The notes under the pieces were generated by a model that ran no database searches, had not been told where the DNA came from, and saw nothing but the letters and a program-made list of their open reading frames with translations. The translations under genes were made by a program, and so were the position numbers. From assembly GCA_020348305.1 (NCBI GenBank), contig CP070746.1:2729933-2761957 (forward strand): a stretch of DNA of 32,025 bases, written 5' to 3'. Source of the stretch: Desulfobacterales bacterium. Lineage in GTDB: Bacteria > Desulfobacterota > Desulfobacteria > Desulfobacterales > JAHEIW01. Of the stretch, positions 1 through 20,092 are shown one piece after another (within the stretch, counting starts at the first letter, position 1; the number at the start of each line of letters is the position of its first letter).

Positions 1-21
1 AATTCATGTCAAGGTAGGTCA

Positions 22-483
22 ATGAAAGGCAAGGCGCTTTTAATAGGAAATTCGGATGGAATCGGTCTAGCCACCACCAAGGAACTTCTGAAACGAGAAT
101 GGAAAGTTGTTGGTATTTCGAGAAGTGTGTCTCCGATAGAAAATCCGTCTTACGAGCATATCGTTGCCAAGGTGCAGGATGATGAATACTTGACTGTATT
201 GAAATCGGTTCTGGAAAAGAGTGAGCCTTTCGACTTATGCGTATTCTGTGCAGGGATAGGCGAGATGTTGAATCTTTTCAATATGGAAGGCGAAACGGAA
301 ATCTTCAATGTGAACCTGCTCGGTATGGTAAAAACTGCATCTTGTGTAATTCCTTTGATGGTCAACAGAGGTAAAGGACACTTTATTGGTCTTTCTAGCC
401 TGGCGGACGAACTGTTGTCGCCTGAAGCTCCCAGCTATCATGCATCAAACGCTAATAATCATATCTTTTTTCGACAGAGTTGA
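22..483 (+). pseudogene. Short-chain dehydrogenase/reductase (SDR), C-terminally truncated remnant
   Basis: The 153-residue frame reads as the N-terminal two thirds of a classical SDR. It has a Rossmann nucleotide-binding motif near residues 8-16 (GNSDGIGLA), a CAGIG segment at about residues 76-80 in place of the NAG motif, and an active-site Ser-Tyr region (GLSS, then SYHAS near residue 138). In intact SDRs the Tyr is followed three residues later by the catalytic Lys (YxxxK) and about 90 more residues. Here the position after YHAS is Asn, and the frame becomes unrelated sequence and stops. No continuation of the fold is visible in the other two frames to about 600. A weak AGGT precedes the ATG. 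The gene is best read as a 3'-deleted remnant; a sequencing or assembly error cannot be excluded. Its original substrate cannot be told. Confidence 0.7.
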
Positions 484-559
484 AATTCAAACCACAAATA
501 ACAGCTTCTATTCTGCCGAAATTTCGTTTACAGAGATCGATTGCTCTATTAATTTTTCG

Positions 560-586
560 TTGACAACGGTGCTGTAAGTTTATTAT
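560..586 (+). promoter_or_regulatory. Candidate sigma70-type promoter of the nuo operon
   Basis: A perfect -35 box TTGACA (560-565) is followed 15 bp later by TATTAT (581-586, 5 of 6 to TATAAT). The spacing is shorter than the optimal 17. A start near 593 would give a leader of about 155 nt before nuoA. It is the only good box pair seen between the SDR remnant and nuoA. Confidence 0.4.
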
Positions 587-607
587 GCCCTCAATCAATA
601 TCTATAC

Positions 608-686
608 CAGCCAATCCGGCTGACTTTTCTTGAAGTCATCTCTCCATCCAAAATTTTCACCGCTGATGCTTGTGAGCACAAGCGGT
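608..686 (+). promoter_or_regulatory. nuo leader inverted repeats (possible operator or RNA hairpins)
   Basis: Three small inverted repeats lie in the presumed nuoA leader. The first is CAGCC/GGCTG (608-612 with 618-622), followed by a T-rich stretch. The second is ACCGCT/AGCGGT (659-664 with 681-686). The third is GCTTGTG/CACAAGC (668-674 with 677-683). The last two share bases and so exclude each other as RNA stems. They could be a regulator site or a leader structure; no regulator gene is nearby to support either. Confidence 0.35.
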
Positions 687-748
687 ATTATTACTGCATC
701 ATTTTCAAACATGAAGATGAATATTTGAAAGAATATTGCGGAGGATTC

Positions 749-1159
749 ATGCAGCCAGTTGAAACTGCAAGCACGCTTTCACCCTGGGAACCAGGCATTT
801 TTAGTCTGACAATCTTTGGGATCCTGGTTCTGGTCTTTATTGCCTCGCAGCTTTTTATTGCCTATTGGCTGGGAGAAAAGAAAAAAAATACCGAAAAATT
901 AAGACCCTATGAAAGTGGAATCATTCCCACCGGAACAGCGCGTCTCCGATATCCGGTTCCCTTTTATCTGGTGGCTATCTTTTTTCTCATCTTTGATGTG
1001 GAGGCGGCATACATTTTTTCGTGGGCCATTGCGTATAAAGAGCTTGGCTGGTCGGGTTGGTTGCAAATTTCTTTTTTTATTATGGTTCTGATTCTGGGAC
1101 TTGTTTACATCTGGAATAAGGGAGGGCTTGAATGGGGGCCGAAAGCGAAGAAAGGTTAA
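749..1159 (+). CDS. nuoA: NADH-quinone oxidoreductase subunit A
   Basis: NuoA is a small three-helix membrane subunit of complex I that helps form the junction between the quinone site and the proton-translocating arm. The 136-residue product has hydrophobic segments near residues 15-37, 70-95 and 105-125. It carries the family hallmarks RPYESGI (about residues 50-56) and the acidic helix motif [12 protein letters not shown], whose Asp and Glu are conserved in NuoA/ND3. The ATG at 749 was chosen over an upstream in-frame TTG at 725 because GGAGG lies at 740-744 and the family normally starts a few residues before the first helix. The gene overlaps the next one by 28 bp, consistent with translational coupling. 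It is the first gene of the nuo operon. Length is typical. Confidence 0.95.
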
Positions 1160-3519
1160 ATAATCGGCTTCTCAGCGGCACCGATGCGGTGATTAACTGG
1201 GCGCGCAAGTACAGCCTCTGGCCCATGTTTTTCGGACTTTCCTGTTGCTTTGTAGAGGAAGCCACGGCCTTTACCTCACGCTATGATATTGCCCGCTTTG
1301 GTGCGGAAGTCCTCCGTCCCTCACCGCGTCAGGCAGATCTGCTCATCGTCTCGGGTACCGTATTTAAAAAAATTGCCCCGGTAGTATTGCGCCTCTATGA
1401 GCAAATGCCGGAACCCAAATGGGTGATTTCCATGGGCTCTTGTTCCAACTGCGGGGGCATGTACGATGTTTACAGCGTGGTTCAGGGGGTGGATCAGATC
1501 CTGCCGGTGGATGTCTATATTCCGGGATGCCCCCCAAGGCCGGAAGCTGTGTTGCAGGGGCTTGTGATGCTGCAGGAAAAGATTACATCCGAAACACCCA
1601 GCCGTACCATTTTCCATCTTAAAGGCGGAACCCAGGGAAGCCAAAAACCGATTCTTGTGGACGGTAAGACCAAATCCAGAGATCCCCGTGGACCGGGTAT
1701 GGAAAAAACCAGTATACGGGGTACCGAAGTTGTACCGCCGAGGTTCTGGGACAGTCGATCAGATGGGATGTGGACACCACCACCGCGGCAAATCGAACTG
1801 AGCGAAACGAATCAATCCCTGGCACAGAGATTAACGCATCGCTTCGGAGATGATGTCCGGCAAAGCCCAAAAACATCGGATATGCTCACAATCCAGGTGG
1901 AACAAAAACATCTCAAGGATCTACTGCATTTTCTGAAAAAAGAGTCCACACCGAAATTCCAGCGTCTGGATGATCTTACCGCCATTGACGAGAGTGCGCG
2001 ACGTGATCGCGGTCGATATCCGGATTATACCCTGGTGTATCATTTATTGTCATTTGAACCTGCTTGCAAAATTCGATTGAAGGTTGCGCTTCACGGGACG
2101 GATCCTGTCACACAAAGTGTTACCGATGTATGGCCTTCTGCCAATTGGTATGAGCGCGAAGTATTTGATTTATTCGGCATCCGATTTGAAGGACATCCCA
2201 ACCTTCGCCGAATCATCATGCCCCATGATTGGGAAGGCCACCCCTTAAGAAAGCAATATCCGGGCCGAGCTACGGAAATGCCGCCTTACACCCATGAAGA
2301 CGCCCGACACCGACAACCCCTGGACGGCGGTGTCTATGTCAAAAAGGCCAACGGTGAACACCGGCTCATCTTAAATATGGGACCCCACCATGTCAGCACT
2401 CACGGATTGATGCGCTACATCGTTGCCCTTAATGGGGAGGAAATCACCGAATTAGACATGGATATCGGCTACCACCACCGGGGGGCTGAAAAAATCGGCG
2501 AACGCCAGACCTGGCATCAATTTATTCCCTATACCGATCGAATCGATTACCTGGCCGGCGCTGCCAATAACCTGCCCTATGTTATGGCCGTGGAAACGCT
2601 GGCAGGGATCAACGTGCCCGAACGAGCTCAGGTTGTCCGGGTAATGCTCAGCGAATTTTTCCGCTTGAGCAACCATCTGGTCTGGTTTGCCACCTATGCG
2701 CATGATGTTGGGGCCATGGCGCCGAATTTCTATACCTTTCGTGAACGGGAGATGATTCTTGATATTGTGGAACTCATCACAGGCGGACGGCTGCATCCGT
2801 CATGGTTTAGGCTGGGGGGGCTGGCGGCCGATTTGCCGGAAGGCTGGAAACAGGCGGTGGACAATTTTGTAAAGATATTTCCTAAAATGCTCAACGAATA
2901 TGAAACATTGATTCGCAAAAATCCCATTTTCATAGCTCGTACCCAGGGAATCGGACGGATTTCATTGGAAGATGCCATGGACTGGGGCGTGACAGGGCCT
3001 AATTTGCGGGCTTGCGGACTGGAATGGGATTTACGAAAGAAATTTCCTTATTCGGGTTATCAGAATTTTGAATTTGAGATTCCTACCGCCAAGGGTGGGG
3101 ATTGTTATGCGCGTTATCTCGTGCGGGTGGAGGAAATGCGCCAGAGTCTGAAGATCATCCAACAGGCCGCAGCAAATATGCCTGACGGACGCTACGTCAC
3201 CGATGATTATCGCTATGTCATTCCGAAGCGGGAGGACATGCTCAAAGATATCGAAAGCCTCATTCATCACTTTATCAACGTGACGCGAGGACCTAAAATG
3301 CCCAGAGGAGAAGCCTATGCCTCTTGTGAAATACCACGAGGTGAGCAAGGATATTATGTCGTCAGTGACGGGCTCGGATATTCGTATCGTACGCGGATAC
3401 GCGGACCCGGATTTGCCAATGTGCAGGTGATGCCGCTGATGGCTGTCGGTGAGAGCATCGCAGACCTCATCGCCATTATCGGTTCGGTTGACTATATATT
3501 GCCGGATATTGACCGGTGA
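1132..3519 (+). CDS. nuoBCD: NADH-quinone oxidoreductase fused subunits B/C/D
   Basis: This 795-residue protein joins three peripheral-arm subunits that connect the NADH module to the quinone site. Residues about 20-150 are NuoB, with the N2 cluster ligands Cys38, Cys39, Cys104 and Cys133 ([22 protein letters not shown]). Residues about 155-245 look like a low-conservation linker. Residues about 250-378 are NuoC, with its signature near residues 341-376 ([25 protein letters not shown]). Residues about 410-795 are NuoD, opening with [11 protein letters not shown] and containing TDRIDYL; the Pro usual after the quinone-site His is Val here. NuoCD fusions are well known (E. coli); the B-C-D form is rarer and, from memory, occurs in deltaproteobacteria. 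The ATG at 1132 has GGAGG at 1121-1125. There is no stop or frameshift in the junctions. Confidence 0.96.
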
Positions 3520-3525
3520 GCCGAA

Positions 3526-3553
3526 GTCGGAATTCGGAATGGGGAATGCGGAA
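3526..3553. repeat. Heptad array, NNSGGAA type (nuoD-nuoE gap)
   Basis: Four consecutive 7-mers of the form NN(C/G)GGAA lie directly after the nuoBCD stop: gtcggaa, ttcggaa, tggggaa, tgcggaa. The same family occurs again at 4294-4321. The flank up to about 3590 (TTTCGTA, TTTTGGA, TCTCGGA) may be a decayed opposite arm. Confidence 0.7.
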
Positions 3554-3644
3554 ACTCCACATTTCGTATTTTGGATCTCGGATTTTTTTCGGTCTAGTGC
3601 TCGAGGCCTTATCGAAAGATGCTTCGCAAATGAGTATTTTTGGA

Positions 3645-3674
3645 TTACGAGGACGATGACGACGACAAGGACGA
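3645..3674. repeat. Hexamer array, NNACGA type
   Basis: Five consecutive 6-mers with an ACGA (once ACAA) core, differing in the first two bases, lie in the nuoD-nuoE gap (ttacga, ggacga, tgacga, cgacaa, ggacga). No open reading frame with a start site uses them. This is a different period from the adjoining heptad arrays. Confidence 0.55.
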
Positions 3675-3711
3675 TTTGATAAAAACCGATATACTATACA
3701 CAAACACGATA

Positions 3712-3816
3712 TCTGTCTGTCATCTGTCATTTGTCGTCTGACACCCGAAACCTGAAACCTTAAAAAACCAGAAGCCATTGATCTGAAATTTGAAACCAGA
3801 ACCCAGAAAACAGAAT
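3712..3816. repeat. Heptad array ending in the nuoE start codon
   Basis: Fifteen 7-bp units can be read in one unbroken phase. They begin with GTCATCT/GTCATTT/GTCGTCT types, pass through two exact GAAACCT units, and end with CCAGAAC, CCAGAAA and ACAGAAT. Only TAAAAAA (3761-3767) departs clearly from the pattern. The last unit supplies the first two bases of the nuoE ATG. The remaining parts of the 295-bp gap (about 3554-3644 and 3675-3711) show no gene. Confidence 0.75.
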
Positions 3817-4288
3817 GCTACCGAAAGAACTCAGAGAATCCCTTAAGGATCACATAGCAAACATCGATCATCCCAGAGAACTGGCTGTTGATGTCATGTT
3901 TACGCTGCAGGACCATTACGGCTATCTCAGTGATGAGGCTGTAAAAGAGGCCGCTGAACTTTTGGAGATGACACCTTTAGAAGTGGATGAAATCGCTACC
4001 TTTTACACGTTTGTTTATCGGGAGCCGGTTGGAAAATATGTGATTCATGTCTGCGACAGCGTCATCTGTTGGATGGACGGTTACGAATCGATAAAAGACT
4101 GTCTTTGCACAAAGTTAGCCATTAATGTGGGAGAAACGACCGCTGACGGTTTGTTCACGCTTTTACCGGTATGCTGTATCGGATATTGCGATATGTCGCC
4201 GGCGATGTTGATCAACCGGAAGGTATACGGGCATCTAAATCCGGAGAAAATAGACAGTATACTGGAGAAATTAAAGGCAGAAGCTTAA
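3815..4288 (+). CDS. nuoE: NADH-quinone oxidoreductase subunit E
   Basis: NuoE is the thioredoxin-like 2Fe-2S subunit (cluster N1a) of the NADH-oxidising module and pairs with NuoF. The 157-residue product matches the usual length. It shows the N-terminal helical part (LQDHYGYLSDEAV), the ATFYTF motif at residues 61-66, and the four cluster ligands Cys80, Cys85, Cys121 and Cys125 (C-x4-C and C-x3-C). A non-ligand Cys120 precedes the second pair. The ATG at 3815 fits the family N-terminus, but no Shine-Dalgarno is visible: the 20 bases before it are the A/C-rich end of a heptad array. Translation may be weak or use an unstructured A-rich leader. The gene lies 295 bp after nuoBCD in the same direction. 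Confidence 0.95.
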   Translation: MLPKELRESLKDHIANIDHPRELAVDVMFTLQDHYGYLSDEAVKEAAELLEMTPLEVDEIATFYTFVYREPVGKYVIHVCDSVICWMDGYESIKDCLCTKLAINVGETTADGLFTLLPVCCIGYCDMSPAMLINRKVYGHLNPEKIDSILEKLKAEA

Positions 4289-4293
4289 ACGAA

Positions 4294-4321
4294 TTCGGAA
4301 GTCGGAAATCGGAATGCGGAA
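4294..4321. repeat. Heptad array, NNCGGAA type (nuoE-nuoF gap)
   Basis: Four perfect consecutive 7-mers, all NNCGGAA (ttcggaa, gtcggaa, atcggaa, tgcggaa), lie between the nuoE stop and the nuoF start. They are of the same family as the units at 3526-3553. Independent copies with variable first bases and a fixed CGGAA core suggest one repeat class rather than chance. Confidence 0.75.
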
Positions 4322-4339
4322 AAATTTTAGGCATTTCAA

Positions 4340-5608
4340 ATGAAATACCCCCAGATATTATTGCAGAATCGTAAACCGGACCGGATTGCCACGCTTGAAG
4401 AATACCGGCAAAGCGGCGGATATCAAGCATTAGCGGATATATTGGAAAAATATTCGTATAAAGATGTTCAGGAGGAGATTCTGGAATCACGATTGCTGGG
4501 TCGGGGCGGTGCCGCTTTTCCGGCCGGTACAAAGCTGATGTCAGTGGCAGACGATGCATCTTTTCCGAGATATATTGTGTGCAATGCCGATGAAATGGAA
4601 CCCGGCACCTTTAAAGATCGCGTGCTGATCCATGCGGATCCGCATATGATCATCGAAGGCATCATCATTGCCGGTTACGCGGTAACAGCGGAGAAAGGCA
4701 TAATATTTATTCGACCCGAATATGAAAGCGGCGCCAAAATATTAGAAAGAGAGATAGATATCGCCAGACAATCCGGCTATCTGGGGAAAAATATTTTAGA
4801 CAGCGATTATGCATTGGATATTGTTGTCCATCGCAGTGCCGGCAGGTACATTTGCGGCGAGGTCACGGCCCAACTTAGTGCGCTTATGGGCAAGCGGCCG
4901 AATCCGAAGCAGCCGCCGCCATACCCAACGGAACGAGGGGTCTGGGGGATGCCGACCGTGCTCAGCAATGTGGAGACCTTCGCCTGTATACCGCACATCA
5001 TCAACAATGGCCCCGATTGGTTTAAAAGCCTCGCTAAAACCGAAACCGGGGCGGGCACGAAAATCTTCTGTGTCAGTGGAAAGGTAAAGCGACCAGGCTT
5101 TTATGAGCTGCCGATTGGAACGCGATTGAGCGAAATCATTGAAGAACATGCCGGAGGCATGCGCGCAGGCTCGGAATTCAAGGCCTGTTTGCCCGGAGGA
5201 GCTTCTACGCAGTTTTTACCCAAAGAACTCTATGATATTGAGATGGATTTTGATCCGTTGCGCGAAGCTGGAAGCCGCCTGGGGACCGGCGCCATTATGG
5301 TTTTTGACCATAAAACCTGTCTGGTTGCCGCGACATTAAACCTCATCGAATTTTTTGCCCGGGAATCCTGTGGATGGTGTACCCCCTGCCGAGAAGGATT
5401 ACCTTATATTCGGGATATATTATGGCGCATTGAAAATGGTGAGGGTGAAGAAGAATTCATGCCCATGCTGGAGCGCATGAGCAAACATCTGTGGAGCGCC
5501 TATTGTGCATTCGCCCCCGGTGCCATATCACCGTTGCAAGGATTGTTGGCCCATTTTAAAGATGAGGTGCTTGAACATATTAGTCAGAGGAAATGTCCTT
5601 TTAAATAA
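4340..5608 (+). CDS. nuoF: NADH-quinone oxidoreductase subunit F
   Basis: NuoF binds FMN and NADH and carries the 4Fe-4S cluster N3, so it is the electron entry point of complex I. The 422-residue product is of normal length and E. coli-like. It has the glycine-rich loop GRGGAAFPAGTK (residues 54-65), CNADEMEPGT (81-90), SNVET (209-213), and cluster ligands Cys344, Cys347, Cys350 (SCGWCTPCREG) and Cys389 (CAFAPGA). At residues 173-177 the near-invariant GEETA motif reads GEVTA: Val175 replaces the Glu that corresponds to E. coli Glu183, which contacts the nicotinamide nucleotide ribose. The FMN and Fe-S motifs are intact, so the subunit should be functional, but donor preference may differ. 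A weak AGG lies 8 bp before the ATG. Confidence 0.95.
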   Translation: MKYPQILLQNRKPDRIATLEEYRQSGGYQALADILEKYSYKDVQEEILESRLLGRGGAAFPAGTKLMSVADDASFPRYIVCNADEMEPGTFKDRVLIHADPHMIIEGIIIAGYAVTAEKGIIFIRPEYESGAKILEREIDIARQSGYLGKNILDSDYALDIVVHRSAGRYICGEVTAQLSALMGKRPNPKQPPPYPTERGVWGMPTVLSNVETFACIPHIINNGPDWFKSLAKTETGAGTKIFCVSGKVKRPGFYELPIGTRLSEIIEEHAGGMRAGSEFKACLPGGASTQFLPKELYDIEMDFDPLREAGSRLGTGAIMVFDHKTCLVAATLNLIEFFARESCGWCTPCREGLPYIRDILWRIENGEGEEEFMPMLERMSKHLWSAYCAFAPGAISPLQGLLAHFKDEVLEHISQRKCPFK

Positions 5609-5615
5609 CACTAGT

Positions 5616-5829
5616 CAGTTGTCAGTTGTCTGTTGTCCGTTGGCTTTGATCTCTGGCTTCTGGCCGCTGGTTTCTGGTCAAAAGAATTTGAAGAAGAGAT
5701 TCCGGCGAATTGACAATAATTTATGCGTAGCCAGAGACCAGCAACCAGTAACCAGCGACGAGATACAGCGACCAGCGACGAGAGACCGGCAACCAGGAGC
5801 AACTGACTACGGACAAGATGCAACGAACG
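5616..5829. repeat. Inverted heptad repeat element (nuoF-nuoG gap)
   Basis: The left arm (5616-5678) is nine phased 7-mers that begin CAGTTGT, CAGTTGT, CTGTTGT and change to CTGGC/CTGGT types. A non-repetitive loop of about 48 bp follows. The right arm (about 5727-5829) is some fifteen 7-mers with NNNACCA cores changing to GCAACTG/GGACAAG types, with one 1-nt phase slip near 5762-5769. The right arm is approximately the reverse complement of the left in both unit type and order, so the element is a large imperfect inverted repeat. It occupies nearly the whole 225-bp gap and ends 4 bp before the nuoG ATG. Confidence 0.8.
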
Positions 5830-5833
5830 TTTT

Positions 5834-8341
5834 ATGTCAAAACTTATTATTGATGATCGGGAAATAGAAGTCTCACCGGGAACCAAAGTGATCGAAGCCG
5901 CAGCTCAGCTGGGTATTATGATTCCGCGATTTTGCTACCACCCTGCTTTGGGGTCGGTGGGAGCATGTCGTGTGTGCGCCGTGAAATTTATACAAGGTCC
6001 GTTTAAAGGCGTGCAGATGAGCTGTATGATCGATGCCCAGGACGGCATGGTGGTCTCTACCACAGATGAGGATGTCGCTGATTTTCGCAGGCACGTTATC
6101 GAATGGTTGATGTTACATCATCCGCATGATTGTCCGGTTTGTGATGAGGGCGGGCATTGTTTACTGCAGGATATGACCGTATCCGGTGGCCACGGTATTC
6201 GAAGATATCTGGGAAAGAAGCGCACGTATACGGATCAATTCCTGGGGCCGTTGCTGCAGCATGAGATGAATCGCTGTATTCATTGCTATCGATGTTCTCG
6301 GTTTTATCAGGAATATAGCGGTTACCGTGATCTCGGGGCAATGCAGAGTGCCAACCGGACTTATTTCGGCCGGTTCACGGACGGCATTTTGGAAAGCCCG
6401 TTTTCCGGAAACCTTAGCGATATATGTCCAACGGGCGTTTACACCGATAAACCATCGCGATATTTTGGGAGACGATGGGATTATCAGCGCAGTCCTTCTC
6501 TGTGTATAAACTGCTCGCTTGGCTGCCATACGGTAGCAAGTATTAAATATCGCGAGGTAAAGCGCCAGGAGGCACGGTTTAGTGAGCCGGTCAACGGCTA
6601 TTTTATCTGTGATCGCGGGCGCTACGGATTTTTTTACAGCAGTCTGGAAAGCAGACCGCGAATGGCAAGAATTAACGGAAAGCAGTGTACTTTCAATCAA
6701 GCTCAGCATGCCATGATTGAGAAGCTGGAAGAGATCAAAAAAAATTCGGGATCCGCAGCGATTGCCGCGGTGGGCTCCCTTCGCAGCAGTCTGGAAACCC
6801 TTGTCATGTTGGCTCAATTGTGCCAAACAAAAAGGTGGCGAGATCCGGCATGCTTTATTGATTCATCACAGGTCCAAAATGTGAAAACCGCAATCAGCAG
6901 GCTGGAGCCTCAATTAAGGGTTTCTCTGCGGGACATAGAAAGGGCGGATTTTATTCTTGCCGTCGGTGCGGACCCAATCAATGAGGCACCCATGCTGGCC
7001 CTGGCAATGCGCCAGGCGCAACGAAATGGCGCCACCATAGTTGTCATCGATCCGCGCCCTGTTTCCTTGCCTTTCCCCTTTCTGTATCTTCCGGCAGCAC
7101 CTATGGCTTTGAGCGCATATCTCGGATCTTTGATTAAGGCCGTGGTTAATCGTGGCACGGCTGATAAGATGGGCGATGGTGCACGCAAATTCTACGATAG
7201 AATTCCGGAAGGTAAGAAACTTGCCGAAGCTCAACCACCCTTAAGCAGCGAAATGTTGCAGAGCCTGCAGCAAAGCCGGAGACCGATTATCGTCTGTGGC
7301 ACCGAGATCTTATCGGAAACCGTGCTTAGCCTTAGTGCCGATTTTGCCTTACTTCTGCAAGCCGCCGAAAAACAAGCCGGCCTGTTTTATCTAATGCCTG
7401 GTGCGAATGCATTTGCCGGTGGGATCCTCTCCGGTGAAAAAGACTCATTCTTGCAAATCATTGAGCAAATTGAAGATGGTTCAATCCGGGCGTTGATTTC
7501 AGTAGAAGCCGATCCCTTTTGGTGGTTTGATGACCGGCCAAGGCTTGAACGAGCACTTGATAAAATTGATCTACTGGTGGTTCTGGATTATCTCGATTCC
7601 CAGGCAGCGCAAAGGGCCAACATTTTTATACCGACTGCCACATTTTATGAGTCGGGTGGTATGCTCATCAACCAAGAGGGCAGGGTGCAGGTTGCTCCAC
7701 GAGCACTTCTGGGCGGTATTCCGATCTCCCAGGCCGGTGGTGGGGATCATCCGCCGCGGTTATATGATGTAGGGATAGCCGGGTTCGATCCAAAAGCAGC
7801 CTGGTTGACTCTTGCCGATCTTGCAAACGGCGCGGCACAGGAAGATGAAAAAGCGTTACAGCAACATCTTTGGAAACAGATCAGCGACCTCATACCGCAG
7901 TTGGCGACCTTCTCATCAATTGATGAAATCCCGCAGGAGGGTATTGTTTGCAGCTGCGGAGTAAACATTGATTCACGGTTTTCAATCAACTGGTCCGCAG
8001 CGTCAAATATACGTCATGATTCTGGTGATGACTTCGATCTTATTGAAGTGGATTGGACCTTCGGAACAGAAGAGTTGTCTTCTTTATCCCCGTGCTTGTG
8101 GAAGTTGGAACGCAAACCGTGTCTCGTCATGCATTCAGGGCGGGCCGAGATCATTGGCTTAACGGATGTGGATCTGGTTGAGATAAGCACGGAAACCGGT
8201 AGTCTGGAAGCTGAGCTTCGTACGGCAGATAATATGGCCCCCGGAATATTGGTTCTGCCTAGACATCGAAAGCTTGCATGGCAAATATTTACCCCGGGAA
8301 AGATAAGGATCCGCAAAGACCAAATTAGGAAGAAACAATAG
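5834..8341 (+). CDS. nuoG: NADH-quinone oxidoreductase subunit G
   Basis: NuoG is the large Fe-S subunit that passes electrons from NuoF/E toward NuoI. In the 835-residue product the N-terminal ferredoxin domain has 2Fe-2S (N1b) ligands Cys34, Cys45, Cys48 and Cys64. The His-Cys 4Fe-4S cluster (N5) uses His96, Cys100, Cys103 and Cys109. N4 uses Cys148, Cys151, Cys154 and Cys198. A further C-x2-C-x3-C-x27-C set (Cys224, Cys227, Cys231, Cys259) matches the optional off-path cluster N7 known from E. coli and Thermus. Residues about 265-660 are a molybdopterin-oxidoreductase-like domain, which in NuoG normally lacks cofactor. The C-terminal about 150 residues are poorly conserved. No Shine-Dalgarno is visible before the ATG, which follows a heptad array by 4 bp. 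Confidence 0.95.
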   Translation: MSKLIIDDREIEVSPGTKVIEAAAQLGIMIPRFCYHPALGSVGACRVCAVKFIQGPFKGVQMSCMIDAQDGMVVSTTDEDVADFRRHVIEWLMLHHPHDCPVCDEGGHCLLQDMTVSGGHGIRRYLGKKRTYTDQFLGPLLQHEMNRCIHCYRCSRFYQEYSGYRDLGAMQSANRTYFGRFTDGILESPFSGNLSDICPTGVYTDKPSRYFGRRWDYQRSPSLCINCSLGCHTVASIKYREVKRQEARFSEPVNGYFICDRGRYGFFYSSLESRPRMARINGKQCTFNQAQHAMIEKLEEIKKNSGSAAIAAVGSLRSSLETLVMLAQLCQTKRWRDPACFIDSSQVQNVKTAISRLEPQLRVSLRDIERADFILAVGADPINEAPMLALAMRQAQRNGATIVVIDPRPVSLPFPFLYLPAAPMALSAYLGSLIKAVVNRGTADKMGDGARKFYDRIPEGKKLAEAQPPLSSEMLQSLQQSRRPIIVCGTEILSETVLSLSADFALLLQAAEKQAGLFYLMPGANAFAGGILSGEKDSFLQIIEQIEDGSIRALISVEADPFWWFDDRPRLERALDKIDLLVVLDYLDSQAAQRANIFIPTATFYESGGMLINQEGRVQVAPRALLGGIPISQAGGGDHPPRLYDVGIAGFDPKAAWLTLADLANGAAQEDEKALQQHLWKQISDLIPQLATFSSIDEIPQEGIVCSCGVNIDSRFSINWSAASNIRHDSGDDFDLIEVDWTFGTEELSSLSPCLWKLERKPCLVMHSGRAEIIGLTDVDLVEISTETGSLEAELRTADNMAPGILVLPRHRKLAWQIFTPGKIRIRKDQIRKKQ

Positions 8342-8373
8342 GGTAGGCATCGCCCTTCACAGGTCGTAATGTT

Positions 8374-9357
8374 ATGGATTGGATTATCGGCATCATAGTT
8401 CTAATTGTTAAGCTGGGACTGGTATTGGTGGGGTTGCTTCTCTTGGCAGCTTATCTGGTGTGGGTGGAGCGTAAATTTCTGGCCAGACTCCAGATCCGAT
8501 ACGGTCCGAATCGGGCCGGAAAATTCGGACTGCTGCAGCCCATAGCAGACGCTCTGAAATTAATGGTCAAAGAAGATACCGTCCCTGAGGCAGCCGATCG
8601 AATCCTTTTTCTGCTTGCCCCGGCAGTGGTGGCTACATCCGCCCTTTTGATGTTCGCCGTGGTGCCCTTTGGAAGTCACTTAACGCTTTGGGGCAAAAAA
8701 ATACCCTTGGTTATTACAGATCTCAATGTCGGTCTGCTGTATGTTTTTGCGCTTTCGTCTTTAGGCGTTTATGGAGTCGCCCTGGGGGGCTGGGCATCCA
8801 ATTCAAAATACAGTCTTTTAGGCGGCATACGGGGTGCCGCCCAGATGATCAGCTATGAGCTTGCTCTGGGCCTTTCACTGGTTCCGATTGTGATGCATGC
8901 CGGCTCTTTCAGTATTGTGGACATTGTGAATGCGCAGGCAAAGTATCCGTTTATTCTCCTACAGCCGTTCGCATTTGTGATTTTCATTGTCAGTGCCATG
9001 GCAGAAAGCAAACGCATTCCGTTTGATCTTCCGGAAGCCGAAAATGAATTGGGTGCCGGGTACCACACCGAATACAGCGGCATGCGGTTTGGACTCTTTT
9101 TTCTTGGTGAATATGTTCACATGCAGGTTCTCGGGGCCTTTGTAGCGGTCTTTTTTTTAGGAGGGTGGCGAGGTCCTCTCTTGCCAGCGCCGGTATGGCT
9201 TTTTATCAAGATCATACTGGTGGCCCTGATTATGATCTGGATCAGAGGGACATTGCCGCGCTTGCGGTATGATCAACTCATGGCCGTGGGGTGGAAAGTA
9301 CTGATTCCAGCAGCGCTGTTGAATATTATGGTAACAGGGGCAATCTTATTAATATAG
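8374..9357 (+). CDS. nuoH: NADH-quinone oxidoreductase subunit H
   Basis: NuoH is the eight-helix membrane subunit that forms much of the quinone chamber and links it to the proton channels. The 327-residue product has the standard length and signatures: VERKFLARLQIRYGPNRAGKFG (about residues 31-52), LLQPIADALKL, and the charged TM5-TM6 quinone-site loop AESKRIPFDLPEAENELGAGYHTEYSG (about residues 209-235). The ATG at 8374 starts directly at the first membrane helix, as usual for the family. The upstream signal is weak (AGG about 10 bp before). It follows nuoG after 32 bp, with no repeat array in that gap. Confidence 0.96.
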   Translation: MDWIIGIIVLIVKLGLVLVGLLLLAAYLVWVERKFLARLQIRYGPNRAGKFGLLQPIADALKLMVKEDTVPEAADRILFLLAPAVVATSALLMFAVVPFGSHLTLWGKKIPLVITDLNVGLLYVFALSSLGVYGVALGGWASNSKYSLLGGIRGAAQMISYELALGLSLVPIVMHAGSFSIVDIVNAQAKYPFILLQPFAFVIFIVSAMAESKRIPFDLPEAENELGAGYHTEYSGMRFGLFFLGEYVHMQVLGAFVAVFFLGGWRGPLLPAPVWLFIKIILVALIMIWIRGTLPRLRYDQLMAVGWKVLIPAALLNIMVTGAILLI

Positions 9358-9360
9358 TTC

Positions 9361-9607
9361 CTGTCCGTTGCATGTTGTCAGTGGCTCGTTGCTCCTGGTT
9401 GCTGGTTTCTCGTCGCTGGGCGCTGGTTTCTTGTCGCTGGTCGTTGGTTATGGATGAATCATCCTTAAATTCCAGGGTATTTAGTTTAAGTTTTTGAGAC
9501 CAAAGACCAGTTGCCAGAGACCAATAACCAGAACCCGGTAGCCAGTGGGTAGTAGCCAGAAGTCAGAGATAAAGCCAACGGACAACGGACAACAAACGAC
9601 TGACAAA
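9361..9607. repeat. Inverted heptad repeat element (nuoH-nuoI gap)
   Basis: The left arm (9361-9451) is thirteen 7-mers in perfect phase, starting with CTGTCCG, TTGCATG, TTGTCAG and continuing as TGGTTTC/TTGTCGC/TGGTCGT types. A 44-bp unique loop follows. The right arm (9496-9607) is sixteen 7-mers in perfect phase: first GAGACCA/GTAGCCA types, then GGACAAC twice, AAACGAC and TGACAAA. Read in reverse complement, the left arm shows the same progression from ACCA-core to GACAA-core units. It begins 3 bp after the nuoH stop. The rest of the gap (9608-9652) carries the nuoI ribosome-binding site. Confidence 0.85.
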
Positions 9608-9652
9608 GCCTTTTTAAAGAGAATTTTTCACGGATAAGGAGAAACGGAGTTT

Positions 9653-10189
9653 ATGGCAGAAGCCCTGGAAGCAATAAAAGCATTAGCAACCGGATTTGCC
9701 ACGACATTTAAGCATCTTTTTCGGAAACCCATAACCGAGGAATATCCGGAATTCAAACGAACTTTGCCTGAGCGTACCCGGGCGCGCATCATTCTTACCC
9801 GGGATCCGGACGGCGGTGAACGTTGTGTTGCCTGTTATCTGTGCTCGGCGGTCTGTCCGGTGAGCTGCATATCCATGCAATCTGCCGAAAAAGAAGATGG
9901 CCGCAGATACGCCACCTGGTTTCGGATAAACTTTGCCCGGTGTATTTATTGTGGTTTATGTGAAGAAGCCTGTCCGACATCTGCGATTCAATTGACTGCG
10001 ATGTTTGAAACCTGCGAGCGCGATATTTTAACGCTTGTTTATGAAAAGGAAGATCTTTTGGTTGATCACGGCGGAAAAGATAAAGAATATAATTTCTACA
10101 AGTATGCGGGAGTCGTTACCCAAGAAGGCGGCAAAGGCGAGCATATCAAAGAAGATAAGCCGGTTAATGTTAAGAGTAATCTACCTTAA
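9653..10189 (+). CDS. nuoI: NADH-quinone oxidoreductase subunit I
   Basis: NuoI is the 8Fe ferredoxin-like subunit that carries clusters N6a and N6b and passes electrons to N2 in NuoB. The 178-residue product has two classical motifs: Cys58-x2-Cys61-x2-Cys64-x3-Cys68-Pro and Cys97-x2-Cys100-x2-Cys103-x3-Cys107-Pro. The N-terminus (residues 1-40) is the amphipathic anchor typical of the family. The C-terminal 30 residues are charged (GGKGEHIKEDKP) and variable. AAGGAG at 9636-9641 and CGGAG at 9645-9649 precede the ATG. This clear ribosome-binding site contrasts with nuoE and nuoG, which abut repeat arrays. Confidence 0.96.
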   Translation: MAEALEAIKALATGFATTFKHLFRKPITEEYPEFKRTLPERTRARIILTRDPDGGERCVACYLCSAVCPVSCISMQSAEKEDGRRYATWFRINFARCIYCGLCEEACPTSAIQLTAMFETCERDILTLVYEKEDLLVDHGGKDKEYNFYKYAGVVTQEGGKGEHIKEDKPVNVKSNLP

Positions 10190-10218
10190 TTCTTGTGGAG
10201 TAATTTGAAGAAATTTGT

Positions 10219-10737
10219 ATGACGATTTATTCAATCATATTTTATATACTAGCACTTCTGATACTCGTTTCTACCGGCCTGGCCATTACCCGGCGCAATC
10301 TGGTGCATGCGGTGATCTATCTGGTATTTTCGTTTTTCGGCAGTGCGCTGTTGTTTTACTTGTTTGGGGCGCCTCTGCTGGCGGTACTTGAAGTAATTAT
10401 CTATGCCGGGGCTATTATGATTTTGTTTCTTTTTATCATCATGATGGTCAAGGTGGAAACGTCTGAGGAACGTATGTTTCCATTGAACCAATGGCTGCCG
10501 GCTGCAGTAATAGGGCTTTTGTATCTTGCAATTGGCGCCTTGCTTGTTTCTTCAGCTCCCGGTAAGGATATTCCCCTTGAAATGGCATTGACCCATCCTA
10601 AAGAATTTGGGCAGTACCTATTCCAACGACACTGGCTTTCGATTGAGATTGTCTCCTTATTGTTGCTGATCGCCCTAATAGGTGCGTTGCATTTGGGGCG
10701 AAGAAAAAGGGAAGAAAAAATCGAGGAGAAACCATGA
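10219..10737 (+). CDS. nuoJ: NADH-quinone oxidoreductase subunit J
   Basis: NuoJ is a five-helix membrane subunit of the proton-translocating arm, whose third helix undergoes the pi-bulge transition in structural models of complex I. The 172-residue product has the conserved N-terminal region (TRRNLVHAVIYLVFSFFGSA, about residues 24-43) and the hallmark LEVIIYAGAIMILFLFIIMMV (about residues 57-77). The C-terminus is charged and ends with KREEKIEEKP. It overlaps nuoK by 4 bp (ATGA), a sign of coupled translation. It follows nuoI after 29 bp. Confidence 0.95.
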   Translation: MTIYSIIFYILALLILVSTGLAITRRNLVHAVIYLVFSFFGSALLFYLFGAPLLAVLEVIIYAGAIMILFLFIIMMVKVETSEERMFPLNQWLPAAVIGLLYLAIGALLVSSAPGKDIPLEMALTHPKEFGQYLFQRHWLSIEIVSLLLLIALIGALHLGRRKREEKIEEKP

Positions 10738-11036
10738 TCGTACCATTTGGCCATGTTCTCATCTTGGCGGGAATTCTTTTTCTGATGGGAATGTTCTGTG
10801 CGGTAACGCGCCGCAACCTCATCATGATTGTGCTTGGCATTGAGATTATGTTAAACGCCGCATCCATCGTTTTTATTGGTGCGGCGCTGCGCTGGCACCA
10901 TTTGGAAGGCCAGGTTTTTGTTGTTTTTATTCTGGCGGTGGCAGCCACTGAAGTTTCCGTCGGCTTAGCGTTAATTGTATATGCGTACCTGCGAACAGGA
11001 TCTTTTGATCCGGGTACGTATAATTTGTTGAAGTAA
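10734..11036 (+). CDS. nuoK: NADH-quinone oxidoreductase subunit K
   Basis: NuoK (ND4L) is the three-helix subunit that contributes two membrane glutamates to a proton channel. The 100-residue product is full length and both glutamates are present: Glu37 (LGIEIMLNA) and Glu73 (AATEVSVGLAL), corresponding to E. coli Glu36 and Glu72. GAGGAGA sits just before the ATG, inside the 3' end of nuoJ. A gap of 56 bp without visible features separates it from nuoL. Confidence 0.96.
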   Translation: MIVPFGHVLILAGILFLMGMFCAVTRRNLIMIVLGIEIMLNAASIVFIGAALRWHHLEGQVFVVFILAVAATEVSVGLALIVYAYLRTGSFDPGTYNLLK

Positions 11037-11092
11037 AACTATTATTTTATTGGTTATTGTGATTTGTTTGATATTTAACTGATAGGAAAAGC

Positions 11093-12985
11093 ATGACCTC
11101 GGCGTTAGTATTAGATCCTACCTTATTGGCTGCAGTTTTGGCATCACTGTTGCCGTTTGTGTCTTTTTTACTGATCATGGTGTTTACCCGCGAATTTCAG
11201 CGTCTCTCCGCCGGCTTGTCGATTGCAGCCGTGACGCTCTCGCTTATATGTGCCCTGTTTCTGCTTGGCCGACACTGGCATCTGCAATCTGCGATCCAGT
11301 ACACCGGTCGGTGGTTGGTCTCGGGAGATATTTCCATCCCCTTTGGTTTTCTACTTGATTCGACCAGTTTGCTCATGCTCGCGTTAGTGGCGGGCATCAG
11401 TTTTCTTGTTCAGATCTATTCCTTAGGCTATATGGCAGGTGATACCGGATTTGCCCGTTATTATGCTTTTATGTCGCTGTTTGCCTGGGCGATGATGAGC
11501 CTGACAATATCCCCCACCATGTTACAGCTGTATATCTTTTGGGAACTGGTGGGTCTGTCGTCCTATCTGCTGATTGGTTTCTGGTATGAGAAGTTCAGCG
11601 CCACCGAAGCCGGCAAGAAGGCCTTTGTCATGACCCGGCTGGGTGATGTGGCCTTCTTCCTTGGATTATTGCTAGTTCTGGTATATCTTGGCAATCTGAA
11701 CGTTCTGGAAATCAACAATAGTGAAGTGACGGTTCGGATGCCACCGGGGGCCATCACAATTTCGGCCTTATTGATTTTCGGGGGTATTATCGGCAAAAGC
11801 GCTCAGTTTCCGCTACTTACCTGGCTGCCGGATGCCATGGAGGGCCCCACTCCGGTAAGCGCTTTGCTGCATTCCGCCACCATGGTGGCCGCCGGCGTAT
11901 ATTTGTTCGCACGTTTGTTTCCGTTTTTTAGTCTTTCTCCCACGGCCATGACGGTATTTCTCATCATTGGTTCCATCAGTATGCTATTAGCCTCTACCAT
12001 GGCCATGGTGAGCCGGGACATCAAACAGGTCTGGGCCTATTCCACCATCAGTCAACTGGGATTCATGATTATGGGGTTGGCTGCCGGTAGCTTTTTTGCC
12101 GGGGTATTTCATCTGACCACCCATGCCGGTTTTAAGGCATTGCTATTTCTCTGTTCGGGGGTTTTCATCCACCAATTTGAAACCAATGACATGTATGAAA
12201 TCGGTCAATATGGAGGACGTCGTTTAAAAATACCCATGATCTGTATGATAATAGCTGCCGCCGCACTGTCCGGCCTGCCGCCGTTTTCCGGATTTTTCAG
12301 CAAAGAAATGATTCTAACGGCCTTGGCCGATTTGAAAAATCCGCTGTGGCTGATTGCCGGATTACTTGGGGCTTTTTTAACCGCCTACTATGCGTTTCGC
12401 CTGATTTTTATCGTTCTTTTTCCAAAAGAAATTGAAACCGGCCAACCCCCAAACCATGGCGCCGGCCATGGGCATGAAACATATTGGGTCATGGCCTGGC
12501 CGCTGATTATCTTGGCAGCAATCACCGCAATACTGGGTTTTTTTCAGGGTTCTTTAGAAAACTTTTTCGGTGGTCACCAATTGGCGTCGGCCAACCAGGG
12601 TGGCGGCCAGCATATCTGGCTGCCGTTTATGGCGTTGGGTCTGGCGCTGGTGGGCGTGGCCTTGGCCTGGATGGAATTCGGACGGCGAGGTGCCAAGCAA
12701 CTGGGTTTTGTCGAACACATACCGTCTTTGAATCAACTGTTTGCCGATCGATGGTATATTGATCGATTTTACCGACGCTTTCTGGATATCGTCATCTATG
12801 GTGTGATTTCCAAGTTGTGTACCCAAAATGATAATAAGGTGATTGATGGAAGTATTCACGGATTAAGCAAGGGTATGGTTGAGACCGGCCGATTCGTGTC
12901 TTTTTTGCATTCGGGTATGGTTCAATACAGGTTGCTTGTTATCTTTATCGTTCTGGTATTGGTGACATTATATTTTCTTTTTTAG
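11093..12985 (+). CDS. nuoL: NADH-quinone oxidoreductase subunit L
   Basis: NuoL is the distal antiporter-like proton-pumping subunit. The 630-residue product is of normal length and carries the residues expected for a working channel: Glu151 in FWELVGLSSY (TM5), Lys235 in GIIGKSAQFPLLTWLPDAMEGPTPVSALLHSATMV (TM7 and loop), and His260 in the same block. The C-terminal part (about residues 520-630) includes the long lateral helix region and a final membrane anchor (LVIFIVLVLVTLYFLF). AGGAAA lies just before the ATG. It is followed by nuoM after 15 bp. Unlike NuoM in this operon, no key residue is missing. Confidence 0.96.
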   Translation: MTSALVLDPTLLAAVLASLLPFVSFLLIMVFTREFQRLSAGLSIAAVTLSLICALFLLGRHWHLQSAIQYTGRWLVSGDISIPFGFLLDSTSLLMLALVAGISFLVQIYSLGYMAGDTGFARYYAFMSLFAWAMMSLTISPTMLQLYIFWELVGLSSYLLIGFWYEKFSATEAGKKAFVMTRLGDVAFFLGLLLVLVYLGNLNVLEINNSEVTVRMPPGAITISALLIFGGIIGKSAQFPLLTWLPDAMEGPTPVSALLHSATMVAAGVYLFARLFPFFSLSPTAMTVFLIIGSISMLLASTMAMVSRDIKQVWAYSTISQLGFMIMGLAAGSFFAGVFHLTTHAGFKALLFLCSGVFIHQFETNDMYEIGQYGGRRLKIPMICMIIAAAALSGLPPFSGFFSKEMILTALADLKNPLWLIAGLLGAFLTAYYAFRLIFIVLFPKEIETGQPPNHGAGHGHETYWVMAWPLIILAAITAILGFFQGSLENFFGGHQLASANQGGGQHIWLPFMALGLALVGVALAWMEFGRRGAKQLGFVEHIPSLNQLFADRWYIDRFYRRFLDIVIYGVISKLCTQNDNKVIDGSIHGLSKGMVETGRFVSFLHSGMVQYRLLVIFIVLVLVTLYFLF

Positions 12986-19630: not shown

Positions 19631-20092
19631 TTAGGTCGTTATTTGAGTCTCCTCGTCTTTTTCATCAGCGGTTTTTTCGTCAGAGTCCTTCTCTTCAGGG
19701 ATTTTTTCGTCAGAGATAATTTTTTCAGGGCGTTTTTCTACAAGGGTTTTTTCGTCAAAGAATTTTTTTTCAGGAAATTTTTCTTCAGCTTTTTGATCCC
19801 ATGGTTTTACTTCTTTCTTCTTTTCTTTTTCAGCCCTTGCTTTTAGATCGTTATTTTCATTTTCCAAGACTTTGATCTTTTTACGCTGATGAAATCGGTT
19901 GGTGAGGCCAATGATCATTCCAATAAAGATACCGATGATCGCACAACCATAGGCAAGAATGTAAAGCGGGAAATCCTGACTATGGAGGCCAAAATAAAAA
20001 TGTAGTTTCACGAGTTGATCGTTTTTGATACCGAACGTGACTAAGAAAAGAAGCATGATAACTAGACCCGTTGCCTTAAGATAGCCTTTCAT
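19631..20092 (-). CDS. LapA-domain (DUF1049)-like membrane protein with Lys/Glu-rich tail
   Basis: The 153-residue product starts with two membrane helices (about residues 7-22 and 42-64) separated by NDQLVKLHFYFGLHSQDFPLYIL, the pattern of the LapA/YciS domain linked to lipopolysaccharide assembly in enterobacteria. A cytoplasmic coiled-coil-like stretch follows (about residues 66-95). The last about 55 residues are almost only Lys, Glu, Asp and a few hydrophobics in repeats of a D/E-E-K core. The DNA under this tail is itself an imperfect tandem repeat. AGGAG precedes the ATG. The tail is not part of the LapA family as I know it and may be a recently expanded low-complexity region. Confidence 0.7.
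   Translation of the reverse strand: MKGYLKATGLVIMLLFLVTFGIKNDQLVKLHFYFGLHSQDFPLYILAYGCAIIGIFIGMIIGLTNRFHQRKKIKVLENENNDLKARAEKEKKKEVKPWDQKAEEKFPEKKFFDEKTLVEKRPEKIISDEKIPEEKDSDEKTADEKDEETQITT
19640..19795 (-). repeat. Imperfect in-frame tandem repeat encoding a Glu-Lys tail
   Basis: On the + strand, motifs like TTTTTCGTCAGAG, TTCTTCAGG and TTTTTTCAGG recur several times with about 24-30 bp spacing. Read on the - strand they encode successive D/E-E-K blocks of the LapA-like protein. The copies differ by substitutions but stay in frame. Confidence 0.55.

Follow-up and report, generated by a model that had tools for sequence, protein, structure and literature searches.

Inverted heptad arrays between nuoF and nuoG

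To characterize an unusual repeat in a nuo operon, we analyzed a 32,025-nt stretch of a Desulfobacterales genome (GenBank GCA_020348305.1, contig CP070746.1, positions 2,729,933 to 2,761,957; hereafter the window). The nuo genes are all on the plus strand, in the order nuoBCD, nuoE, nuoF, nuoG, nuoH, nuoI, nuoJ, and nuoL. The gap between nuoF and nuoG is 225 bp long and contains two inverted arrays of 7-bp units (heptads), which together span 5612–5821 and enclose a loop (Table 1). The left arm starts 3 bp past the nuoF stop codon, and the right arm ends ~12 bp ahead of the nuoG start. The order of the units is mirrored, with GTTGTC/GACAAC outermost and CTGGTNN/NNACCAG innermost. This feature most likely belongs to a general element type, in which inverted heptad arms are associated with the gene for S23p (PF05635, 23S_rRNA_IVP), the four-helix-bundle protein of 23S rRNA intervening sequences (IVS).

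The heptad period is well above what dinucleotide shuffles produce. The 7-bp self-match is 0.67 vs 0.31 in the left arm (z 6.3), 0.55 vs 0.30 in the right arm (z 5.1), and 0.50 vs 0.25 over the whole element (z 8.1), and in each case, none of 5000 shuffles was as high. The two arms have an inverted similarity of z 8.8 and pair more strongly than they do with their units permuted (z −4.3), and the predicted RNA fold of the element is −76.8 kcal/mol (z −4.9 vs dinucleotide shuffles). Rfam 15 covariance models gave no match in window positions 1–12000 up to E = 1. Cyanobacterial short tandemly repeated repetitive (STRR) sequences and simple heptamer repeats are near-perfect direct repeats of one unit; the nuoF–nuoG element instead has two unit families, inverted and degenerate at fixed positions. 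Because its units are degenerate, a strict search pattern (CTGGTx3...ACCAGx3) misses even this copy and was abandoned.

Further heptad arrays lie nearby. Autocorrelation at 7 bp exceeds 0.5 in seven stretches of the window, all within the nuo operon region at 3496–9615, and periods 7, 14, and 21 dominate the high-autocorrelation windows across the stretch. The gap between nuoH and nuoI holds a second element (9361–9605) with the same architecture and unit family as the first.

Table 1. Heptad elements, other period-7 arrays, and flanking genes in the window (HMM, hidden Markov model)
Feature	Position	Strand	Basis
nuoF–nuoG element, left arm, T/G-rich heptads: outer GTTGTCN, then inner CTGGTNN	5612..5679	+	HMM segmentation, 7-bp autocorrelation
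nuoF–nuoG element, loop, 47 bp, unique sequence	5680..5726	.	HMM segmentation
nuoF–nuoG element, right arm, A/C-rich heptads: inner NNACCAG, then outer GACAAC-like	5727..5821	+	HMM, autocorrelation, pairing with left arm
nuoF, upstream flanking gene	4340..5608	+	NCBIfam TIGR01959
nuoG, downstream flanking gene	5834..8341	+	NCBIfam TIGR01973
Second element (nuoH–nuoI), left arm (GTTGTC / CTGGT)	9361..9450	+	autocorrelation, HMM
Second element, loop	9451..9495	.	HMM
Second element, right arm (ACCAG, then CAACGGA units)	9496..9605	+	HMM
Period-7 arrays TCTGTCA, then GAAACCA, directly 5' of nuoE start	3681..3814	+	autocorrelation
Period-7 array, GGAATNC type, 3' of nuoBCD	3496..3600	+	autocorrelation
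Short GAAATCG/GGAATGC heptads between nuoE and nuoF	4291..4322	+	

Period-7 arrays and mirrored arms across the genome

The genome (designated G000; its sister species is G001) is a single 6.97-Mb contig, from which we surveyed three unbiased 400-kb blocks, 1.2 Mb in total. These contain 126 period-7 arrays, 99 of them mostly non-coding, vs 12 in block shuffles, and the non-coding signal among periods 4–30 has a strong peak at 7. Unit families are numerous and include NNACCAG, TTATTNG, CGNAACN, GGAATNC, AACCTGA, TCTGTCN, and ACATCGA. Arrays occur in 63/374 gaps between co-directional genes (16.8%) vs 12/165 divergent or convergent gaps (7.3%; P = 0.003). When arrays were found by periodicity alone, mismatches were uneven over the seven columns (P < 0.05) in 21 out of 45, with ~2 expected; thus, a slipped repeat that simply drifts evenly would not account for them.

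We then used a cyclic HMM on 1.49 Mb, comprising the 1.2 Mb above plus ~0.29 Mb of ACCAG-targeted stretches, and the learned unit was [A/G]CCAG[not G][A/G]. Since this profile was ACCAG-seeded, it is the seedless column test that provides unbiased evidence for uneven drift. The HMM yielded 47 T/G and 36 A/C arrays, and all 19 opposite CTGGT/ACCAG pairs within 450 bp run T/G then A/C, with none reversed. The loops of the mirrored elements range from zero to 222 bp and are mutually unrelated in sequence, while RNA folding energy averages 4.0 standard deviations below dinucleotide shuffles. Perfect arm complementarity does not hold as a general rule: only five out of 19 elements pair better than with their units permuted (mean z −1.2), which suggests that the arms mostly drift independently. 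The ACCAG expansion is lineage-specific, with 151 matches vs 44 control in G000 and 101 vs 14 in G008, and near background elsewhere.

A preliminary description, made from the letters of this DNA, had proposed two mirrored heptad arrays with a loop that could form a long hairpin, and had called for a shuffled control and for second loci. Both arrays are present, with slightly shifted edges; the shuffles and the predicted fold agree with it; and second loci are supplied by the 99 arrays, the nuoH–nuoI element, and arrays in the same gap of relatives. Its mirrored pairing recurs with one polarity throughout, and the free drift that it saw at some unit positions is real, as well as non-uniform.

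Stop codons in all frames are found in 54% of upstream arms vs 43% of nulls with permuted columns (P = 0.02) and in 40% of downstream arms vs 22%, a value reached by none of 300 nulls. That such stops are the reason for period 7 is a weak proposition, offered as an idea. An element whose arms are AACGTCG/ATCGAAC, and whose right parts are almost the same from copy to copy, is dispersed over G000:339254-339634, 2699844-2699951, 2768410-2768678, and 1185420 (L164); one copy still has part of an S23p gene, and the family looks recently multiplied. Elsewhere in the window, a 15-bp tandem repeat, TTTTTCTTCAGGGAT, lies at 19658–19788 and overlaps a minus-strand open reading frame (19631–20092).

S23p genes between inverted heptad arms

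S23p sequences lie inside such arms in this genome and in others. The CTGGT/ACCAG element at G000:2555452-2555849 has a 222-bp loop that holds a gene-like S23p N-terminus, MSYKNLEIWQEARKLVIDIHKI (17.6 bits; minus strand, G000:2555548-2555613), and it lies within the stretch G000:2554576-2555849. In G001, the nuoH–nuoI gap, orthologous to the window's second element, contains a 42-residue PF05635 match between AAATTCG arms, which is the only S23p match in 400 kb of that genome. At five out of six PF05635 matches in G000 (L161, L163–L166), inverted short-period arrays lie on either side, and each locus has a repeat unit of its own; the tally is a visual one, and the automatic arm test is passed by only some of these five. 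Complete elements with the same unit families were found in G045 (GCTCGTT...S23p...AACCAGC) and in a Phycisphaerae genome (TCAGTTG...S23p...CAACTGA; L257). G045 also has three S23p genes within ~4.4 kb (G045:C200:45701-50069, L276), with arm types GCTCGTT/GCTGGTT/GGTTGCA. S23p remnants in loops are few: of five matches in 1.49 Mb, four adjoin arrays, against a background of 3%. Assuming that the gene-less copies are relics at all, most of them must therefore be past detection.

To assess the association more broadly, we picked loci by protein only from named species (80 from public genomes, 78 usable), called inverted arms at z ≥ 4, and used the same loci 500 bp further out as a distal control (n = 76). 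Inverted arms are present in 55/78 S23p loci vs 0/76 controls, and period-7 arrays are on both sides in 44/78 vs 1/76. Periods 5–15 were tested, and only 7 and 14 are enriched. Across 58 genomes of the same order, inverted arms occur at 23/34 S23p loci vs 0/80 small control genes, with period-7 arrays in both flanks at 16/34 vs 1/80, and a third set of S23p reading frames has inverted arms in 34 out of 46 cases. In all, S23p lies between inverted heptad arrays in >15 phyla, archaea included. Sources of the named loci include Gemmataceae, Flavobacterium, Anaerolineae, Clostridia, Latescibacterota, Thiohalocapsa, Anabaena, Nostoc, Methanophagales archaea, Omnitrophica, Nitrospirae, Fibrobacter, Geobacter, Acidobacteria, Kaiserbacteria, and Akkermansia.

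The arms of these elements share a consistent organization. In the sense direction of S23p, the upstream arm is G-rich in 46/52 elements and the downstream arm C-rich in 44/53, with a median of 5.4–5.9 units per arm. In 44/59 elements, the left unit and the reverse-complemented right unit are identical or one base apart; mismatches are column-uneven in 32/66 arms. Both flanking genes are co-oriented with S23p in 37/45 cases vs 52/88 for other small genes (P = 0.011). The unit sequence also follows the protein. Among S23p pairs at different genomic sites, 87.5% share the unit (≤1 mismatch) at >80% protein identity, 34.5% at 60–80%, and ~5% at <50% (Mantel P = 0.002); the trend is monotone above 50% identity, and the >80% bin comprises eight pairs. 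This co-variation indicates that arms and gene form one unit.

Probable turnover, alternatives, and relation to known systems

Orthologous gaps differ in content between species. In Flavobacterium, we read the gmk–nadD gap in 29 species and placed the results on a gmk+nadD tree. The gap contains an S23p element in seven species, gene-less mirrored heptads of other unit families in six (gaps of 66–146 bp), another inverted repeat in seven, and other inserts in three, while six have a short gap of 22–56 bp, and these states are interspersed on the tree. Two Flavobacterium gmk–nadD loci (L344, L333) carry a different dispersed palindrome, AGACGCGATTAATCGCGTCT, single or tandem. In relatives of G000, the nuoF–nuoG gap has AAATTCG arms (G001, G002, G005), NACGGAC heptads (G003), GTTGTCC/GGACAAC (G012), an 8-mer inverted pair (G004), nothing clear (G027), or 6 bp and no element (G015). 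The gap at G000:2706471 is 207 bp long and has mirrored heptads, vs 2 bp in G001. S23p-bearing and gene-less contents alternate at one orthologous site both in gmk–nadD and in nuoH–nuoI (G000 vs G001); no such alternation was seen at the nuoF–nuoG gap itself among the relatives compared. Swapped contents at one site point to insertion turnover and not to a single ancestral element that drifted, although recurrent conversion may be an alternative source.

We interpret the nuoF–nuoG feature as belonging to an IVS-like type of inverted-heptad element associated with S23p, here without the gene, with a probability of roughly 0.72. It has two inverted period-7 arrays, the G-rich one first, and S23p-bearing copies exist in the same family. 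The proposed plan is a G-rich (T/G) heptad array, a loop or S23p gene, and an inverted C-rich (A/C) heptad array, such that complete copies would resemble 23S rRNA IVS relocated into gaps between protein genes. The nuoF–nuoG copy is presumably transcribed with the nuo operon and would fold into a long imperfect hairpin, which RNase III could excise from the mRNA or cleave in place, as it does with rRNA IVS; insertion between a stop and a start codon would therefore cost little. S23p is probably a pentameric ring; its two solved relatives (2GSC and 2RLD) have five chains per entry. It may read the arms unit by unit, one subunit per heptad (~4–6 units per arm, with a fixed core and variable spacer positions), and may aid the element's spread or persistence. 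Gene loss would leave the arms, which would then drift, and the nuoF–nuoG copy may have lost its gene or never had one. More tentatively, at somewhat less than even odds, S23p and its inverted heptad arms could be a distinct class of prokaryotic mobile element that has no transposase or reverse transcriptase (RT) of its own and spreads at the RNA/hairpin level. Bacterial and archaeal intergenic heptamer arrays would then largely be its arms or relics, and the S23p ring of subunits would read the 7-nt register.

Several observations weigh against this interpretation. The 5680–5726 loop has no detectable S23p remnant, and the S23p link of this copy comes from arm architecture, shared unit families, and neighboring and orthologous copies. 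Most mirrored heptads in G000 are without any S23p trace, and ~30% of S23p genes are without significant arms in our test. Arm periods of 8, 9, 10, or more at L163 (G000:1680698), L188, L192, L168, and the G004 nuoF–nuoG gap mean that unit length is not strictly 7. No insertion with clean ends or target-site duplication was seen, the compared species being too distant; likewise, no duplication is evident at the nuoF–nuoG copy, for which a sufficiently close empty site was not found. Lastly, the conserved unit cores of gene-less copies may reflect another host function.

Could the arrays be neutral heptanucleotide microsatellites, expanded by slippage and mirrored by palindromic repair with no protein involved? 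In the SPADE survey, no intergenic tandem repeat of prokaryotes was more abundant than the heptamers, and what they do was left without an explanation (PMC6344855); 7-nt steps separate related cyanobacteria (PMC4679880). However, arm polarity is fixed (19/19), the arms specifically flank one protein family with which the unit sequence co-varies, and mismatch columns are uneven both in arrays found by periodicity (21/45) and in S23p arms (32/66). This explanation is thus unlikely; slippage as a full account is largely refuted by the S23p association, while it may change copy number within arms.

The strong predicted fold and the preference for co-directional gaps would also suit a host cis-regulatory RNA, its hairpin or heptads selected to set nuoF–nuoG expression or mRNA stability. 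Right arms frequently end near start codons, and the TAACTGA repeats of Beggiatoaceae directly precede them (PMC4679880). The preliminary description had raised such a role for nuoF and nuoG, which we find unsupported: relatives hold other unit families in this gap, one ortholog has 6 bp and no element, the Flavobacterium gmk–nadD gap swaps its contents likewise, and ~700 arrays genome-wide (extrapolated from 1.2 Mb) adjoin unrelated genes. We consider a regulatory origin improbable.

A miniature inverted-repeat transposable element, moved by a trans-acting transposase on the heptad arms, would account for inverted arms and patchy insertion, but it is very unlikely given that the end sequence is not conserved across families, units vary between elements of one genome, and the co-orientation of S23p with both neighbors is unexpected for a DNA transposon. 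S23p resembles Avd, a related four-helix bundle that is an RT partner. A retroelement like a short interspersed element, its hairpin RNA copied by RT supplied in trans, is nevertheless the least probable alternative and is rejected for now: S23p elements are co-oriented with host transcription and PF05635 is mentioned in a paper on diversity-generating retroelements (PMC10053308), but RT (RVT_1) counts do not track S23p counts over 58 genomes (rho 0.07), and 19/45 S23p genomes are without an RT match, among them the two with the most S23p copies, G041 (23) and G045 (18). Separately, a 4.2-Mb relative (G053) has 43 RVT_1 matches, mostly with identical scores, a large recent group II intron-like expansion.

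The S23p-associated element also recasts the remaining suggestions of the preliminary description. Its mobile, non-coding element is apt as a probably mobile one, and non-coding is right for the nuoF–nuoG copy; what it missed is the S23p gene between the arms of complete versions. It had likened the repeat to those of heterocystous cyanobacteria as an analogous element in an unrelated lineage. The likeness in look stands, while the analogy is probably wrong because cyanobacteria carry the same gene-plus-arms layout (e.g. L213, L239, L254, L266), apparently an element of one kind with those described here. If the link is right, the heptamer-repeat puzzle and the S23p/IVS puzzle would be one, with heptad arrays as the arms of S23p elements. 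Many genes annotated as "four helix bundle protein" would belong to a mobile or selfish element that takes up residence between the genes of operons, which may explain the abundance of 7-base repeats in prokaryotic intergenic gaps.

Among known systems, repetitive extragenic palindromes (REP and REPIN, with the REP-RAYT system) are likewise short intergenic inverted repeats in transcribed regions whose gene-less copies rely on a family protein. They differ in that no REP palindrome is apparent here, and the partner is a four-helix bundle instead of a Y1 transposase. The closer comparison is with the 23S rRNA IVS, e.g. of Coxiella burnetii, in which an S23p gene lies within an inverted-repeat stem, GACAGAT heptads directly precede the S23p reading frame, and the gene decays while the stem stays, much like the complete and gene-less elements here (PMC4990558). 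RNase III cutting of the Coxiella IVS was shown in vitro, whereas for >25 years it has been unclear what S23p and IVS do and where they come from (PMC4990558). In contrast to IVS, which interrupt rRNA helices, the elements described here occupy gaps between protein-coding genes, and many heptad families make up their tandem arms; the nuoF–nuoG copy has the inverted-repeat stem, but it neither encodes S23p nor interrupts 23S rRNA.

The heptanucleotide repeats of cyanobacteria, Xanthomonas, Beggiatoaceae, and Bacteroidetes (STRR; PMC4692102, PMC4679880, PMC6344855) are also 7-nt, intergenic, dispersed, and frequently near start or stop codons. Those reports treat direct single-unit arrays, with single inverted examples shown by Rehm et al., and we found in them neither S23p genes nor a systematic layout of two inverted arms. 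In Geobacter metallireducens, multicopy heptads (GGACCGG x4; MTYCTGA x5) are tandem and dispersed, some drawn as hairpin arms, and were read as global-regulator sites with no S23p link made (PMC2700814). Geobacter sp. AOG1 has an S23p gene with CGGACCC-type arms (L240), and the 49 reported GGACCGG elements of G. metallireducens may be of the same kind. We found no paper on a general heptad–S23p link in an open-access library, a search that does not establish priority. Heptad repeats and S23p-coding IVS were each already known; what we propose here is their general connection.
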